Shown in pieces: positions 393-63,369 of a DNA stretch of 64,000 nt. The stretch is from Mycobacteriales bacterium (GTDB lineage: Bacteria > Actinomycetota > Actinomycetes > Mycobacteriales > SCTD01). Position numbers and translations under genes: made by a program. The stretch is taken from assembly GCA_030697205.1 (NCBI GenBank), contig JAUYQP010000011.1, forward strand, positions 1 through 64,000, given 5' to 3'. Every line of letters starts with the position of its first letter. The stretch's first letter is position 1. The notes under the pieces were generated by a model that had not been told where the DNA came from, searched no databases, and saw only the letters and a program-made list of their open reading frames with translations.

Positions 393-902
393 ATGCGCCT
401 GACCCGCCGCACGCTGCTGCTGAGCGGCGCCCTCCCGCTCGCCGCGTGCACCGACGCGCCCGCACCGCAGCCCGCCCCCGTCGACCCCGACATCGCCCTG
501 CGCGACGCGGCCGCCGCGCGCGAAAGGCGACTGCTCCAGGAGTACGACGCAGCGCTCGCCGCCGTGCCGTCCCTCGCGGCGGTGCTCGCTCCGCTGCGCG
601 CCGACCACGTCGCCCACCTCACCGCCCTGAGCCCGACCGGCACTCCCTCCCCCGGCCCGCCCTCCCCCGGCCAGACGTCGACGCCCACCCCCGCCGGCTC
701 GTCCTCTGGTCCGCTGCCCGCCGCCGCGCTGCCGACCGCGGCACCCGCGCGACGGGCCGCGGTCCTCGCCCGCCTCGTCGCCGCCGAGCGGGCCGCCGCG
801 ACCGCCCACGCCACCGACGCGCTCGCCGCCTCGACCGCGCTGACCGGGCTGCTCGGCCAGCTGTCGGCCTGCGAGAGATCGCACCCCGTGGTGCTGGTGT
901 GA
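393..902 (+). CDS. Lipoprotein with a ferritin-like helical domain
   Basis: A 169-residue protein. The ATG at 393 gives a signal peptide with two arginines (TRRTLLLSG) and a lipobox LAAC, so export as a lipoprotein, possibly by Tat, is likely. After the Cys a Pro-rich linker leads to helices carrying spaced Glu/His residues (LLQEYDAAL, DHVAHL, LVAAERAAATAHA, SACERSH), interrupted by a Pro/Ser/Thr-rich loop. This resembles a four-helix ferritin-like bundle and suggests a metal-binding or storage role; the catalytic role is not known. It overlaps the next gene by 4 bp (GTGA), which encodes a second ferritin-like protein. The ORF is open further upstream to 186, but that stretch overlaps the preceding gene and terminator. 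Confidence 0.72.
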   Translation: MRLTRRTLLLSGALPLAACTDAPAPQPAPVDPDIALRDAAAARERRLLQEYDAALAAVPSLAAVLAPLRADHVAHLTALSPTGTPSPGPPSPGQTSTPTPAGSSSGPLPAAALPTAAPARRAAVLARLVAAERAAATAHATDALAASTALTGLLGQLSACERSHPVVLV

Positions 903-1318
903 GCGACACCGACCTGCTGACCGCGGCGCTCGTGGCCGAGCACGCCGCGGTCTACGGCTACGGCGTGCTCGGCGGCCGGCTCGACGACGAGACCCGCGCG
1001 GCCGCGCGCACCGCCTTCGACAGCCACCGCAACCGGCGCGACCTGCTCACGGCGGCCCTCACCGAGCGGGGCGCCGAGGCCCCGGTGACGCAGGCGGCGT
1101 ACGACGTGGTGGTCCCCGACCGCGCGGGTGCGCTGCTGCTGGCCGTCCGGCTCGAGGAGGGCCTGTCGCAGCGCTGGCGAGACCTGCTCGCCGGCACCGA
1201 CGACGTCGAGCTGCGCCGGCTCGCGCTGGCCGGGCTGAACGAGACCGCGGTGCGCGCGACCCAGTGGCGGGTCCGCGCGCGCGTCACCCCCGCGACCGTG
1301 GCCCTTCCCGGCGCCTGA
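899..1318 (+). CDS. DUF4439 ferritin-like domain protein
   Basis: A 139-residue cytoplasmic protein starting with GTG at 899, translationally coupled to the upstream lipoprotein gene. Helical segments carry conserved-looking Glu/His positions (LVAEHAAVYGYG, FDSHRNRRDLL, VRLEEGLSQRW, GLNETAVRATQWR), typical of DUF4439 ferritin-like proteins of actinobacteria. The family is predicted to bind a di-metal centre, but no biochemical function is established. In relatives such genes often lie near proS/rimP; here proS lies two genes away on the other strand. The pairing suggests one extracytoplasmic and one cytoplasmic member of the same fold. Confidence 0.75.
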   Translation: MSDTDLLTAALVAEHAAVYGYGVLGGRLDDETRAAARTAFDSHRNRRDLLTAALTERGAEAPVTQAAYDVVVPDRAGALLLAVRLEEGLSQRWRDLLAGTDDVELRRLALAGLNETAVRATQWRVRARVTPATVALPGA

Positions 1319-1374: not shown

Positions 1375-1396
1375 GGCCTCAGTCAGCGCAGACCGG

Positions 1397-1493
1397 TCCG
1401 AACTGCTTCCAGTCCCGCGAAGCACCCCCGCCCCCCACGCTCAACCGGCCCGGTGCACGGCCGCACCACCTGGAGGTGGAAGCAGTGCGGATC
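1397..1493. repeat. 97-bp paired-arm intergenic element, copy A
   Basis: The left arm (1397-1415) is complementary, with a few mismatches, to the right arm (1472-1493), and 56 bp separate them. A second copy lies at 61107-61203. The left arms are identical over 19 bp, the right arms differ at one of 22 positions, and both total length and spacer length are identical, while the spacer sequences differ. This copy is in the convergent gap between a DUF4439 gene and a HAD hydrolase gene. It encodes no protein that I can see. It could be a REP- or MITE-like element or a structured site. Confidence 0.75.
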
Positions 1494-1534: not shown

Positions 1535-2257
1535 TCAGGGGGACCAGGAGGCGACGAGGTCCGCGAGACCGGCGAGGTCGGGCAGCGAAGCGTCGGGCAC
1601 GACGTCGAAGGGCTCGACCGGCCGGCCCGTGAGCAGCACCGTGCGCATCCCGAGGGCCTGCGCGCCGGAGACGTCGTCGCGCGGCCGGTCACCGACGAAG
1701 ACGCACTCGGCCGGGTCGACGCCGAGCGCTGCGGTGAGGGCCAGGAAGGCCTCGGGGTGCGGCTTCATGTGGGCCAGCTCGCTGGTGTAGACCCGCGCGT
1801 CGAGCAGGTCGAGCAGCCCCGCGTCAGCCAGCCAGCGGTCGTGCAGGGCCCGCGGCCAGTGGGTGTTGGACAGCAGCCCGGTGCGCAGCCCGCGGTCCCG
1901 CAGCGCCGTCAGGCACGCCACCGCGTGCGGGTCGTGCGCGACCGTGACCTCCCAGGCACCGTGGTACGCCGAGAGCGCGCCCGCGACGTCGAGGTGCGTC
2001 TCGGCCGCGACCGACCGCACGATGGCCTCGGTCGTCCCCGAACCGGTCCCGTCACCCGCACTGACCCGGCTGCGCCACCAGTGCAGCTCGGCCTCGAGCA
2101 GGGCGGCGGCCACCGGCTCGGGGTCGGTCGGGGCGAGCACCCGGGCGGCGGCCCGCCACATGTCGAGCAGGTCGACGTCGACGTGCGTCGACAGCGTGCC
2201 GCCCCAGTCGAAGAGCACGGCCCTCGCCGGCCGGGAAGTCGTCGGACCACCGCTCAT
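1535..2257 (-). CDS. HAD-family hydrolase
   Basis: A 240-residue haloacid-dehalogenase-superfamily phosphatase. Motif I is FDWGGTL near residue 16, in which the second Asp of the usual DxD is replaced by Gly (DWGGT), an arrangement also seen in dehalogenase-like members. Motif II is LLSNTHW, motif III a Lys in HMKPHPEAF, and motif IV FVGDRPRDDVSGA. The length and an alpha-helical cap between motifs I and II fit subfamily I. The chosen ATG at 2257 overlaps the stop of the ybaK gene (ATGA), so it is coupled to the proS-ybaK unit. The substrate cannot be predicted. Confidence 0.8.
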   Translation of the reverse strand: MSGGPTTSRPARAVLFDWGGTLSTHVDVDLLDMWRAAARVLAPTDPEPVAAALLEAELHWWRSRVSAGDGTGSGTTEAIVRSVAAETHLDVAGALSAYHGAWEVTVAHDPHAVACLTALRDRGLRTGLLSNTHWPRALHDRWLADAGLLDLLDARVYTSELAHMKPHPEAFLALTAALGVDPAECVFVGDRPRDDVSGAQALGMRTVLLTGRPVEPFDVVPDASLPDLAGLADLVASWSP

Positions 2258-10126: not shown

Positions 10127-10211
10127 CCCTCAACCTTCCGCATGTGCGCCGGTGTCGGCGCTACCAGGCCTCGGTAGCGCCGACACCCGCGCACAAGGCG
10201 GGGGTTGAGGG
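10127..10211. terminator. 85-bp palindrome, bidirectional terminator candidate
   Basis: Outer arms pair over 9 bp (10127-10135 with 10203-10211) and inner arms over 23 bp with one mismatch (10143-10165 with 10173-10195), leaving a 7-nt loop. It fills the gap between the convergent yaaA and aldehyde dehydrogenase genes. It can serve both strands as a factor-independent terminator. Confidence 0.8.
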
Positions 10212-60017: not shown

Positions 60018-60500
60018 CTAGCGCGTCTCGGAGAGCCGCTCGGTCAGGGCCGCGTGCACGGTCGCGGGGATGAGCCCGCTGACGTCCCCACCGTACGTCG
60101 CGACCTCCTTGACCAGGCTGCTCGACAGGAACGAGTAGAGCGGGTTGGTCGGCATGAACATCGTCTCGACCGCGGCCAGCCCGTGGTTCATCTGCGCCAT
60201 CTGCAGCTCGTAGTCGAAGTCGCTGACGGCCCGCAGCCCCTTGACGATGACCGGGATGTCGCGGTCACGGCAGTAGTCGACGACCAGGCCGTGGAAGCTG
60301 TCGACCACGACGTTGGGCCACGGCCGCACGGCCTCGCGGATGAGGTCGATGCGCTCCTCGACAGTGAACAGCGAGGACTTCTTCTTGTTGACGAGCACCG
60401 CGACGGTGACCTCGTCGTAGAGGGCCGCGGCGCGCTCGACGACGTCGAGGTGGCCCAGCGTGATCGGGTCGAACGACCCTGGGCAGACTGCGCGCCTCAC
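60018..60500 (-). CDS. coaD: Phosphopantetheine adenylyltransferase
   Basis: A 160-residue enzyme of CoA synthesis that makes dephospho-CoA from 4'-phosphopantetheine and ATP. It has the nucleotidyltransferase motif in CPGSFDPITLGHLD, the VKGLRAVSDFDYELQMAQMN segment and the C-terminal TNPLYSFLSSSLVKEVATYGG block. GTG at 60500 overlaps the rsmD stop (GTGA). Confidence 0.97.
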   Translation of the reverse strand: MRRAVCPGSFDPITLGHLDVVERAAALYDEVTVAVLVNKKKSSLFTVEERIDLIREAVRPWPNVVVDSFHGLVVDYCRDRDIPVIVKGLRAVSDFDYELQMAQMNHGLAAVETMFMPTNPLYSFLSSSLVKEVATYGGDVSGLIPATVHAALTERLSETR

Positions 60501-61036
60501 ACCAGGGCCCCGATCCAGATCATGGCCTCACCATAGCGACGGGAGCGCAGCCCCTCGTAGCCCTCCGGCCACTCCAGTGCGGCGTCGCGCGCGGACCGCT
60601 CCACGACGACGACGGCATCGGCCGACAGCAGCGCCCGCAGGACCGGCAGCGGCAGCCCCGCCTGGGCGTAGGGGGGGTCCAGGAAGACGACGTCGAACAG
60701 GCCGTACGCCGCTGCCGGTCCCGCGAGCCAGCGGTCGACAGGGGCGTGCACGACCTCGGCGCCCGGCAGCCCCACCGCCTCGGCGTTGCGCCGCAGGACC
60801 CCTGCCGCACCGCCGTCGTGGTCGACGAGCACGACGGAGGCGGCACCGCGCGACAGCGCCTCGAGCCCGAGCGCACCGGTGCCGGCGTAGAGGTCGAGCA
60901 CCCGTGCGCCCTCCAGGTCGGTGAGGGTCTCGAGGCTCGAGAACAGCCCCTCGCGGGCCCGGTCACCGGTCGGTCGCGCGCCGTCGGGCACGGCGAGCCG
61001 CCGGCCGCGGGCCTGTCCGGCCACGATCCGCGTCAC
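60497..61036 (-). CDS. rsmD: 16S rRNA (guanine-966 N2)-methyltransferase RsmD
   Basis: A 179-residue methyltransferase acting on the 30S subunit. The Rossmann fold has ARVLDLYAGTGALGLEALSRGA, and the catalytic motif is FLDPPYAQ. The start MTRIVAGQARGRRLAVPDG (GTG at 61036) is typical. It is coupled to coaD and separated from recG by a 191-bp gap that holds copy B of the 97-bp element. Confidence 0.95.
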   Translation of the reverse strand: MTRIVAGQARGRRLAVPDGARPTGDRAREGLFSSLETLTDLEGARVLDLYAGTGALGLEALSRGAASVVLVDHDGGAAGVLRRNAEAVGLPGAEVVHAPVDRWLAGPAAAYGLFDVVFLDPPYAQAGLPLPVLRALLSADAVVVVERSARDAALEWPEGYEGLRSRRYGEAMIWIGALV

Positions 61037-61106
61037 GCCGCCGGCCTCATCACCCCACCAGCCTGCCAGCCCACCCGCCCCGACCCCTCCCAGCGGCGCC
61101 CCGCGA

Positions 61107-61203
61107 TCCGAACTGCTTCCAGTCCTCGCCTCACAGCCAGCGCACCCGCCACGTCAGGCGCGCGCCAGCACCCCGGCCCGCGGAGGTGGAAGCAGCGCGG
61201 ATC
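61107..61203. repeat. 97-bp paired-arm intergenic element, copy B
   Basis: Left arm 61107-61125 is identical over 19 bp to copy A, right arm 61182-61203 differs at one position, and the 56-bp spacer has the same length but different sequence. The arms can be extended slightly (for example 61102-61127 with 61181-61207). This copy lies between recG and rsmD, two minus-strand genes, so orientation is not dictated by convergence. Confidence 0.75.
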
Positions 61204-61227: not shown

Positions 61228-63369
61228 TCAGGCCTTCTCGAGGAAGTCGGCGCGCTGGTCGTCGACGAGCTCGCGGACCGCGTCGCGCAGCGCCGCGTGG
61301 CGCTCCAGCGCGGGGTCCTTCGCGACGAGCGCAGCGGCCGCCTCGCGGGCCTCGCGGATCACGTCCTCGTCGCGCAGCAGCTGCAGCATCTTCAGCGACG
61401 AGCGCGACCCGGACTGCGCGGCGCCGAGGACGTCGCCCTCGCGGCGCTGCTCGAGGTCGATGCGCGACAGGGCGAAGCCGTCGGAGGTGGCCGCGACCGC
61501 GTCGAGCCGCTCGCGGGCCGGCGAGCCGAGGGGCGCCTCGGTGACGAGCAGGCACAGACCGCCGTGCTCGCCGCGGCCGATCCGCCCGCGCAGCTGGTGC
61601 AGCTGGGAGACCCCGAAGCGGTCGGCGTCCATCACCACCATCACGCTGCTGTTGGGCACGTCGACGCCGACCTCGACGACCGTCGTCGCGACGAGGACCT
61701 CGACCTCGCCGAGCACGAAGCGGCCCATCACGTCGTCCTTGGCGTCGTTGCCCATCCGGCCGTGCAGGCCCGCGACCCGCAGCCCGCGCAGCGGCCCGTC
61801 GGTCAGGACCGGCAGCAGCTCCTCGACGGCCACGGCGGGCCGGCGGCCGTCCTCGGCCGGGCCCTCGTCGTCACCACCGATGCGCGGGCACACCACGAAG
61901 GCCTGCCGCCCGTCGGACACCGCCTCGCGGACCCGCTCCCAGGCCCGCTCCAGCCAGGCCGGCTGCTCGGCGACCGGCACGACCGCGGTCCTCACCGGCG
62001 AGCGACCGGCCGGCATCTCCGTGAGGGTCGACACCTCGAGGTCGCCGTAGACGGTCATCGCGACGGTGCGCGGGATCGGCGTCGCGGTCATGACGAGCAC
62101 GTGCGGCGCCTCGCCCTTGGCCCGCAGGGCGTCGCGCTGCTCGACCCCGAAGCGGTGCTGCTCGTCGACGACGACGAGGCCGAGGTCGGCGAAGGCGACG
62201 CCCTCCGACAGCAGGGCGTGGGTGCCCACGACGATGCCCGCGGCCCCGGAGGCGACCTCGTCGAGGGCGTCGCGGCGGGCGGCGGCGCCCTGCGAGCCGG
62301 TGAGCAGCGCCACCCGGGTCGCGACGTCGGCCCCGCCGAGCTCGCCGGCCTGACCGAGCGCGCCGAGCATCGCCCGCATCGAGCGGTGGTGCTGCTGGGC
62401 GAGGACCTCCGTGGGCGCCAGCAGCGCCGCCTGCCCGCCGCTGTCGACGACGCGCAGCATCGCGAGCAGGGCGACCAGCGTCTTTCCGGTGCCGACCTCG
62501 CCCTGCAGCAGCCGATGCATCGGGTGGTCGTCGGCGAGCTCGGCCGCGAGCACCTCGCCGATCTCGCGCTGGCCGCCGGTGAGGGTGAAGGGCAGCTGGG
62601 CGAGCAGCGCGTCGTGGATGCCACCCGCCCGTCCAGGTCGCGGCACCCCCGGCATGGCGACGAGCGCCGCGCGCCGCTGGGCCAGCACGACCTGCAGGAC
62701 GAAGGCCTCGTCCCACTTCAGCCGCTGCCGGGCAAGGCTCACATCGGCCCAGGACTCGGGACGGTGCACGAGGTGCAGCGCCTCACGCAGCGAGGGCAGG
62801 GCCTTGTCGGCGAGCAGCGACGCAGGCAGCGGGTCGTCGTCGAGGTCGGCGATGTCGAGCGCCATCCGCACCGACCTGGCGATCGCGACGCTGTCGAGCT
62901 TGGCCGTCGCGGGGTAGATCGGCAGCAGCGCGCCGGCGAACTCCGACACCACGGTGCCGTCGTCGTCGTCGACGAGCGCGAACTCCGGGTTGGCCAGCTG
63001 CACCGCCCGGTTGAAGACCTCGACCTTCCCGGAGAACAGCGCGCGCCGACCGGGCGTGAGCGTGCCGGCGACCCACGGCCGGTTGAAGATCGCGAGCTTC
63101 ATCGTGGCGCCGCCGTCGTCGCGGATCGTCACGTCGGTCTTGTGCAGCTTGGGTCGCAGCAGCCGACCGGCGACGTGCACGACCTCGGCCATCACGGTCG
63201 CGTGCTCACCGACGACCAGCTCGCTGAAGGGCATGAGCTTCCCGCGCTCGGCGTAGCGCCTGGGGTAGTGCCGCAGCAGGTCGCCGACCGTGCGCAGCCC
63301 GAGCAGCTGCTCGAAGGCCTTCGCCGACTTGCCCACCGCGTGGTGGACCGGCGCCCCCAGCGCGACCAC
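61228..63369 (-). CDS. recG: ATP-dependent DNA helicase RecG
   Basis: A 713-residue helicase that remodels stalled forks and Holliday junctions. The N-terminal wedge (OB) domain covers about 30-180; helicase motifs include GEVGTGKT (I), the VVDEQHRFG DExH box (II), MTATPIPRT (III), and DADRFGVSQLHQLRGRIGRG (VI). GTG at 63369 overlaps the stop of the next gene by one base. The fakA-like gene-recG-rsmD-coaD order is conserved in actinobacteria. Confidence 0.96.
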   Translation of the reverse strand: MVALGAPVHHAVGKSAKAFEQLLGLRTVGDLLRHYPRRYAERGKLMPFSELVVGEHATVMAEVVHVAGRLLRPKLHKTDVTIRDDGGATMKLAIFNRPWVAGTLTPGRRALFSGKVEVFNRAVQLANPEFALVDDDDGTVVSEFAGALLPIYPATAKLDSVAIARSVRMALDIADLDDDPLPASLLADKALPSLREALHLVHRPESWADVSLARQRLKWDEAFVLQVVLAQRRAALVAMPGVPRPGRAGGIHDALLAQLPFTLTGGQREIGEVLAAELADDHPMHRLLQGEVGTGKTLVALLAMLRVVDSGGQAALLAPTEVLAQQHHRSMRAMLGALGQAGELGGADVATRVALLTGSQGAAARRDALDEVASGAAGIVVGTHALLSEGVAFADLGLVVVDEQHRFGVEQRDALRAKGEAPHVLVMTATPIPRTVAMTVYGDLEVSTLTEMPAGRSPVRTAVVPVAEQPAWLERAWERVREAVSDGRQAFVVCPRIGGDDEGPAEDGRRPAVAVEELLPVLTDGPLRGLRVAGLHGRMGNDAKDDVMGRFVLGEVEVLVATTVVEVGVDVPNSSVMVVMDADRFGVSQLHQLRGRIGRGEHGGLCLLVTEAPLGSPARERLDAVAATSDGFALSRIDLEQRREGDVLGAAQSGSRSSLKMLQLLRDEDVIREAREAAAALVAKDPALERHAALRDAVRELVDDQRADFLEKA

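Follow-up and report, generated by a model that had tools for sequence, protein, structure and literature searches.

Paired inverted arms at spacings about one helical turn apart in a dispersed element of a Mycobacteriales genome

Introduction

What keeps two short arms, and the distance between them, constant while the sequence between them changes freely? The question is raised by an element found in a 64,000-nucleotide stretch of DNA from a Mycobacteriales bacterium, one of a poorly known group of soil actinobacteria (GenBank assembly GCA_030697205.1, contig JAUYQP010000011.1, positions 1 to 64,000), which we call the window and which is part of contig C11 of a 4.02-Mb draft genome in 59 contigs (the source genome, G000). 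A preliminary description of the window reported two copies of 97 bp and offered three readings: a structure, a protein that binds both arms in a fixed helical register, and a mobile element that does not encode its own transposition. Here we describe the anatomy, spacing, genomic position and relatives of the element and weigh these readings.

Results

The left arms of the two window copies were identical (1397-1415 and 61107-61125, no mismatch), and no third match with three mismatches or fewer was found in the window, where 0.01 was expected by shuffling. The right arms differed by one base over 1472-1493, as described, or by two if the arm is taken as 1471-1492. Five matches to the inner box CTGCTTCCA were counted in the window, where 0.13 would be expected. 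The two copies proved equal in length, but that length is 99 bp and not 97 bp, since the dyad begins 2 bp earlier, at GGTCC or GATCC. The number of copies was larger than the two originally reported: an exact search for the core pair found six loci in the source genome, 12 like-armed copies were recovered with a covariance model (R1), and a second model (R2) identified two variant-armed ones. A single-arm search made without any assumption about spacing returned 15 perfect arms, all of which were inversely paired when degenerate partners were counted; no perfect arm in the 59-contig draft was unpaired or paired at a distance, and all paired at 89-100 bp. The elements have terminal inverted repeats, are shorter than 200 bp, are dispersed and have no coding capacity. 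Their coordinates are collected in Table 1.

Table 1. Coordinates of the element, its arms and the genes that adjoin it (window positions unless a contig is named).
Feature	Position	Strand	Remarks
Copy 1, whole element	1395..1493	none	99 bp; CCA..TGG distance 71
Copy 1 left arm	1395..1415	+	GGTCC outer box, GAA spacer, CTGCTTCCA inner box, then GTCC (type-B box)
Copy 1 spacer	1416..1471	none	length constrained; sequence and folding unconstrained
Copy 1 right arm	1472..1493	-	minus-strand reading GATCC-GCA-CTGCTTCCA-CCTCC; type-A box
Copy 2, whole element	61105..61203	none	99 bp; CCA..TGG distance 71
Copy 2 left arm	61105..61125	+	GATCC-GAA-CTGCTTCCA-GTCC
Copy 2 right arm	61182..61203	-	minus-strand reading GATCC-GCG-CTGCTTCCA-CCTCC
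DUF4439 ferritin-like protein gene	899..1318	+	stop 76 bp left of copy 1
HAD hydrolase gene	1535..2218	-	stop 41 bp right of copy 1; convergent with DUF4439 gene
Cons_hypoth95 methyltransferase (RsmD-like) gene	60497..61036	-	starts left of copy 2
RecG helicase gene	61228..63369	-	stop 24 bp right of copy 2
Like-armed copies 1-6	C3:24372, C11:1395, C11:61105, C14:40849, C15:108438, C23:57378		covariance model R1
Like-armed copies 7-12	C23:57504, C24:1594, C25:66047, C32:109798, C37:6080, C49:44817		covariance model R1
Variant-armed copies	C15:112473, C52:87405		arms CGGAC-nnn-GRCNTCCACCT; second model R2

The logo of 22 arms from the source genome reads (C)GRTCC-K-N-N-CTGCTTCCA, followed by GTCC (type B) or CC[TC] (type A), and is inverted at both ends. 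The outer box GRTCC and the inner box were nearly invariant, while the 3-base spacer between them was freer. A flanking C was present at 17 of the 22 arm ends; outside the element, dyad symmetry did not exceed expectation past one flanking base. Between elements, the 17-bp arms were 81% alike, while the middles were as unrelated as had been described, with an ungapped identity among same-length copies of 35% (0.349) against 34% (0.342) expected from composition. Only the copies C3, C23 and C23b clearly shared their middles (z = 7), the other middles being at the composition level. At G000:C23:57378-57592 (about 5379-5593 of L088), two elements with similar middles and left flanks lie 38 bp apart, and this C23/C23b pair is, judging from its sequence, probably a tandem duplication.

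Spacing was measured from CCA to TGG, both included. The 14 copies of the source genome had spacings of 60, 61, 61, 61, 62, 69, 70, 71 (six copies) and 72 bp, while those of two relatives described below were 61, 66, 71 and 72 bp (G003) and 59 and 59 bp (G011). Under a uniform 59-72 model, the empty range of 63-68 bp (0/14 in the source genome, P = 4e-4; 1/20 among strong copies, P = 2e-4) is improbable, with the reservation that the counts are not fully independent, as related copies may share length by descent, which is clear for C3/C23/C23b. The two classes, 60-62 and 69-72 bp, are about 10 bp apart, or about one turn of B-DNA; this agrees with a helical periodicity of length, although the exact period could be set only from a larger number of peaks. 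Since the middles have been randomised by substitution, we reason that insertions and deletions should have spread the lengths as well unless length is constrained. A protein acting on the arms at a fixed helical phase is the best supported of the readings first offered, given two spacer classes one turn apart and a middle under no constraint of sequence or folding. The preliminary description named two outcomes that would refute it, an absence of further copies and a freely varying spacer length; neither was found.

Dispersed copies with conserved ends could also belong to an ordinary MITE family, in which terminal inverted repeats of ~21 bp are served by a transposase in trans, the phase reflects a limit on transpososome synapsis and the interiors have been erased by age. 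We consider this account rather unlikely. The copies are dispersed, intergenic and 89-100 bp long with inverted paired ends, the interior common to C3, C23 and C23b (with its tandem pair) would be natural in such a family, and helical-twist behaviour has been reported for bacterial transposons, for which 64-70 bp is the quoted in vivo minimum for cut-and-paste elements (PMC3464196). However, none of 12 copies was flanked by direct repeats of at least 4 bp (2-3 bp matches were seen in four copies only), no long element bearing these ends was found, the perfect arms all being paired at the short distance given above, and Y1 transposase, the one transposase family searched, was absent from 24/24 family genomes. 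Furthermore, neutral ageing would erase the arms as fast as the middles, yet the arms persist. The mobile-element reading retains some probability, but searches for duplicated targets, for interiors common to the copies, for a long element with the same ends and for a Y1 transposase all came back empty. The elements resemble REPs in being short, palindromic, intergenic and dispersed, with species-specific arms and an occasional position inside genes (PMC3733652), but a REP/BIME-type element moved by a RAYT (Y1/HUH) transposase is highly improbable: the PF01797 protein was found in 0/24 family genomes, while control genomes were positive, no GTAG or CGTC tag was present in the arm, and the unit of 89-100 bp, with its loop of 55-66 bp, exceeds the 20-40 bp of a REP hairpin. 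The absence of PF01797 from the 24 genomes rules out RAYT mobilisation from within these genomes.

If the arms pair with each other, odd bases of one arm should be mirrored in the other, and a binding site and a stem can hence be separated within the source genome. Entire elements folded better than shuffles (z -2.6 to -6.2, plus strand), and the middles folded as shuffled DNA (mean z -0.01 and -0.17 for the two strands). Covariation inside the source genome barely exceeded shuffles, and the inner boxes were mismatched in 4/12 copies. The likeness of left and right arms within an element was slightly above that of random pairs (P = 0.006, 11 elements; P = 0.067 without C25, C3 and C23), C25 being the single clear mirrored case, with CTGC changed to CGAC in both arms. 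The inner-box type of one arm, A or B, was not linked to that of the other (P = 0.3), a pattern that separate binding sites would produce. Given the unstructured middle and the quantised spacing, these sequence comparisons make a pair of protein sites on the DNA more likely than an RNA stem. The structural reading first proposed is weakened in its purely RNA form by a middle that lacks structure, by inner boxes without covariation and by arms that match each other only weakly above random pairing.

In the source genome, all 12 like-armed copies were intergenic, and the variant-armed copy on C52 overlapped the predicted start region of a gene; the genes on either side of it are presumably rsmG- and parB-like, as named by eye. 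Among 11 distinct loci with both neighbours of known orientation, seven were convergent, three tandem and one divergent, while convergent pairs made up 31 of 245 intergenic regions of at least 110 bp (13%) in 845 kb of the source genome (enrichment P = 1e-4). At least one adjacent stop codon was present at 10/11 distinct loci. Such positions, together with the folding of whole elements, agree with a transcribed hairpin, in which the arms form an RNA stem at gene 3' ends, bidirectional between convergent genes, and serve mRNA protection, processing or termination. A terminator scan, however, returned no terminator-like site, no Rfam family was matched, two spacings one DNA turn apart are left unexplained by RNA stems, and the weak covariation, mismatched inner boxes and unstructured middle reported above also speak against it. 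The transcribed hairpin is therefore doubtful, even with the between-genus covariation of stem pairs described below in its favour.

The exact arm-pair pattern had no match in 100 relatives, and the exact pair with the outer box had none among 84,980 species genomes, the source genome being left out. Two weak R1 matches led to elements with the same layout and different arms in G003 and G011, which represent another genus of the family. G003 (Frankiaceae bacterium isolate 3_4_m_bin13, a MAG) carries four elements with the arm [CT]GGACARRTGACTGCCA followed by a B or A box; the short form of this pattern also matches by chance (3 in the reversed control), and the claim rests on the extended arms. 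G011 carries two elements with arms CGGAAC..GGCATCCAGTCC (control 0). Their lengths are similar to those of the source genome, except for one 66-bp copy, and the arms are genome-specific in the two genera. Between genera, both sides had changed at 12/17 arm positions (50 cells, where shuffles gave 22), and pairing was seen in 87.5% of cells, against 20-42% in slid registers. Such two-sided change would be expected under base pairing, and just as much if each arm were a copy of one binding site. Further relatives at G011:C149 (71 bp), G017:C392 (71 bp) and G021:C683 (60 bp) are likely, though weaker.

G003 and G011 each have one element within a coding sequence, where it is read in frame as part of a Pro/Ala-rich linker; the two membrane proteins concerned are orthologous, and each element bears the arm type of its own genome. 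The gene adjoining that of the linker protein is one that we take by eye to be UDP-glucose dehydrogenase-like. The linker is hypervariable, and it is shorter and without an element in the source genome, G015, G012, G022 and others. In so variable a linker, the absence of the element from the five other orthologues inspected may speak for a MITE but is an ambiguous sign. The element may be an old one whose arms changed along with the others of its genome, or this permissive linker may have received two elements. No orthologous sites of the source-genome elements were found in a 400-kb sample of G003.

Database searches yielded no named family. Rfam gave 0 window matches at gathering score, and its one match on six loci, to a miRNA, was far under the gathering score and was judged chance. 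Plasmids and phages gave weak partial matches only, and 13 exact inner-arm matches in viral contigs were set aside as chance, none having the outer box and their G+C being mixed. Marginal R1/R2 matches (L042, L043, L045-L047, L049, L064-L066, L071 and L080) were read by eye as probable chance matches in coding sequence, and the ACTGCCA matches in G010 and G001 and the GGCATCCA match in G008 were dropped, being without outer box or inner-box type. Integron attC sites, which are defined by GTTRRRY ends, have a similar box-spacer-box layout, but the element lacks such ends.

Other hairpin families are also present. A dispersed family with arms CCGCTTGTRCGC..GGTGTCGGCGCTAC and a loop of 8-14 bp is present in the window at 10127-10211 and also at L129 19216-19284, L131 18479-18542 and L132 1059-1198 and 2419-2480. 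A family of the source genome, GATCAWCAG..CTGCACG (L116 4454, L121 1617, L122 2520, L123 14303, L125 12034, L137 1305 and L144 1212), has two discrete sizes, four copies measuring 60 and three 72 from GATC to GATC, as taken by eye. A family with CCTTGCTGCACTGCACGC arms and a nested TGCACTGCACG/CGTGCACTGC repeat (L147 17886-17981, L148 9580-9680 and 16895-17017, L153 4970-5067) has differing middles and totals of 96, 98, 101 and 123 bp. Three more families of dispersed hairpins were seen, with GGATTGGGTGGCTTTC (L125 15572, L130 7838, L153 15359), GATGTGGCGATCACG (L124 14630, L137 12951-13071, L114 2823) and GCGAGATGATCACCA (L141 11053, L142 11343). In a relative of genus g2, a nearly perfect and very stable hairpin of ~27 bp (-100 kcal/mol with flanks) lies at L063 1501-1592 (G001:C88:71165-71256).

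Discussion

We lean, with modest confidence, towards the view that each copy is a DNA-level unit composed of two inverted sites for one putative protein, synapsed over a short loop. In each arm, a 5-bp outer box, a free ~3-bp spacer and a 9-bp inner box are followed by one of two alternative 4-bp boxes, and the bound protein would join both arms across the loop. As short DNA is stiff to twist, only spacings that place the sites on the same face (CCA to TGG of ~60.5 or 71 bp) would be kept, which would account for the two length classes. The loop sequence could then drift freely, while selection would maintain the arms and their spacing in place. We infer the protein, the synapsis and the selection in place, rather than observe them. 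Against this view stand one G003 copy, of 66 bp, that falls between both length classes, the lengths that related copies may owe to descent, the slight excess likeness of left and right arms, and C25, which has changed both arms together, as base pairing would also produce.

The arms probably originated as the ends of a small non-autonomous transposon. A synapsed pair may at present still serve to move or excise the element, or it may have taken on a function for the host where genes converge. It is possible, though we would not expect it, that the copies are fixed chromosomal sites, derived from a domesticated transposon and found preferentially where genes converge, at which a dedicated putative protein synapses the inverted arms across a 60-70 bp loop and the arms shift between species in concert with the specificity of the protein, making them a formal prokaryotic counterpart of ciliate IES ends. 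Conserved ends, a free interior and a turn-quantised length make up a fingerprint of DNA looping that is seldom visible from bacterial sequence alone. If looping is correct, the element would be a natural helical-twist experiment and would predict an arm-specific protein; small palindromic elements would then be kept by selection on the geometry of arm pairing and not on sequence content or RNA structure.

By the features listed in PMC2229807, the element belongs broadly with the palindromic repeats and MITEs of bacteria, but it showed none of the tested MITE hallmarks of target duplication, shared interior and matching long element, and its spacing rule is unusual; no published description of it was found in a literature search that was thin on subscription journals. 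With REP/BIME (PMC3733652) it shares dispersed intergenic palindromes of species-specific sequence, while its spacer is much longer, the GTAG/CGTC tag is lacking and its genomes have no RAYT. Rickettsia palindromic elements (PMC2229807, PMC3733652) are likewise palindromic, ~100 bp long and able to stand in frame within coding sequence, as in G003 and G011, whereas the present element has another sequence, no CGTC tag and conservation of the arms alone. The bacterial MITEs RUP, NEMIS/Correia and YPAL (PMC2229807) are also non-coding, dispersed and mostly intergenic, of ~100 bp with terminal inverted repeats; in contrast to them, the present element is G+C-rich, lacks TA ends, showed no target-site duplication, has interiors unrelated between copies and is quantised in spacing by the helical turn. 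The closest working parallel is provided by the IESs of Paramecium, whose lengths are ~10-bp periodic, a feature ascribed to loop formation in a transpososome-like complex (PMC3464196). The present element is bacterial, has a longer and stronger end sequence, few copies and no known partner transposase, and we claim no common ancestry; what the two have in common is short segments with conserved ends and lengths that differ in steps of about 10 bp.
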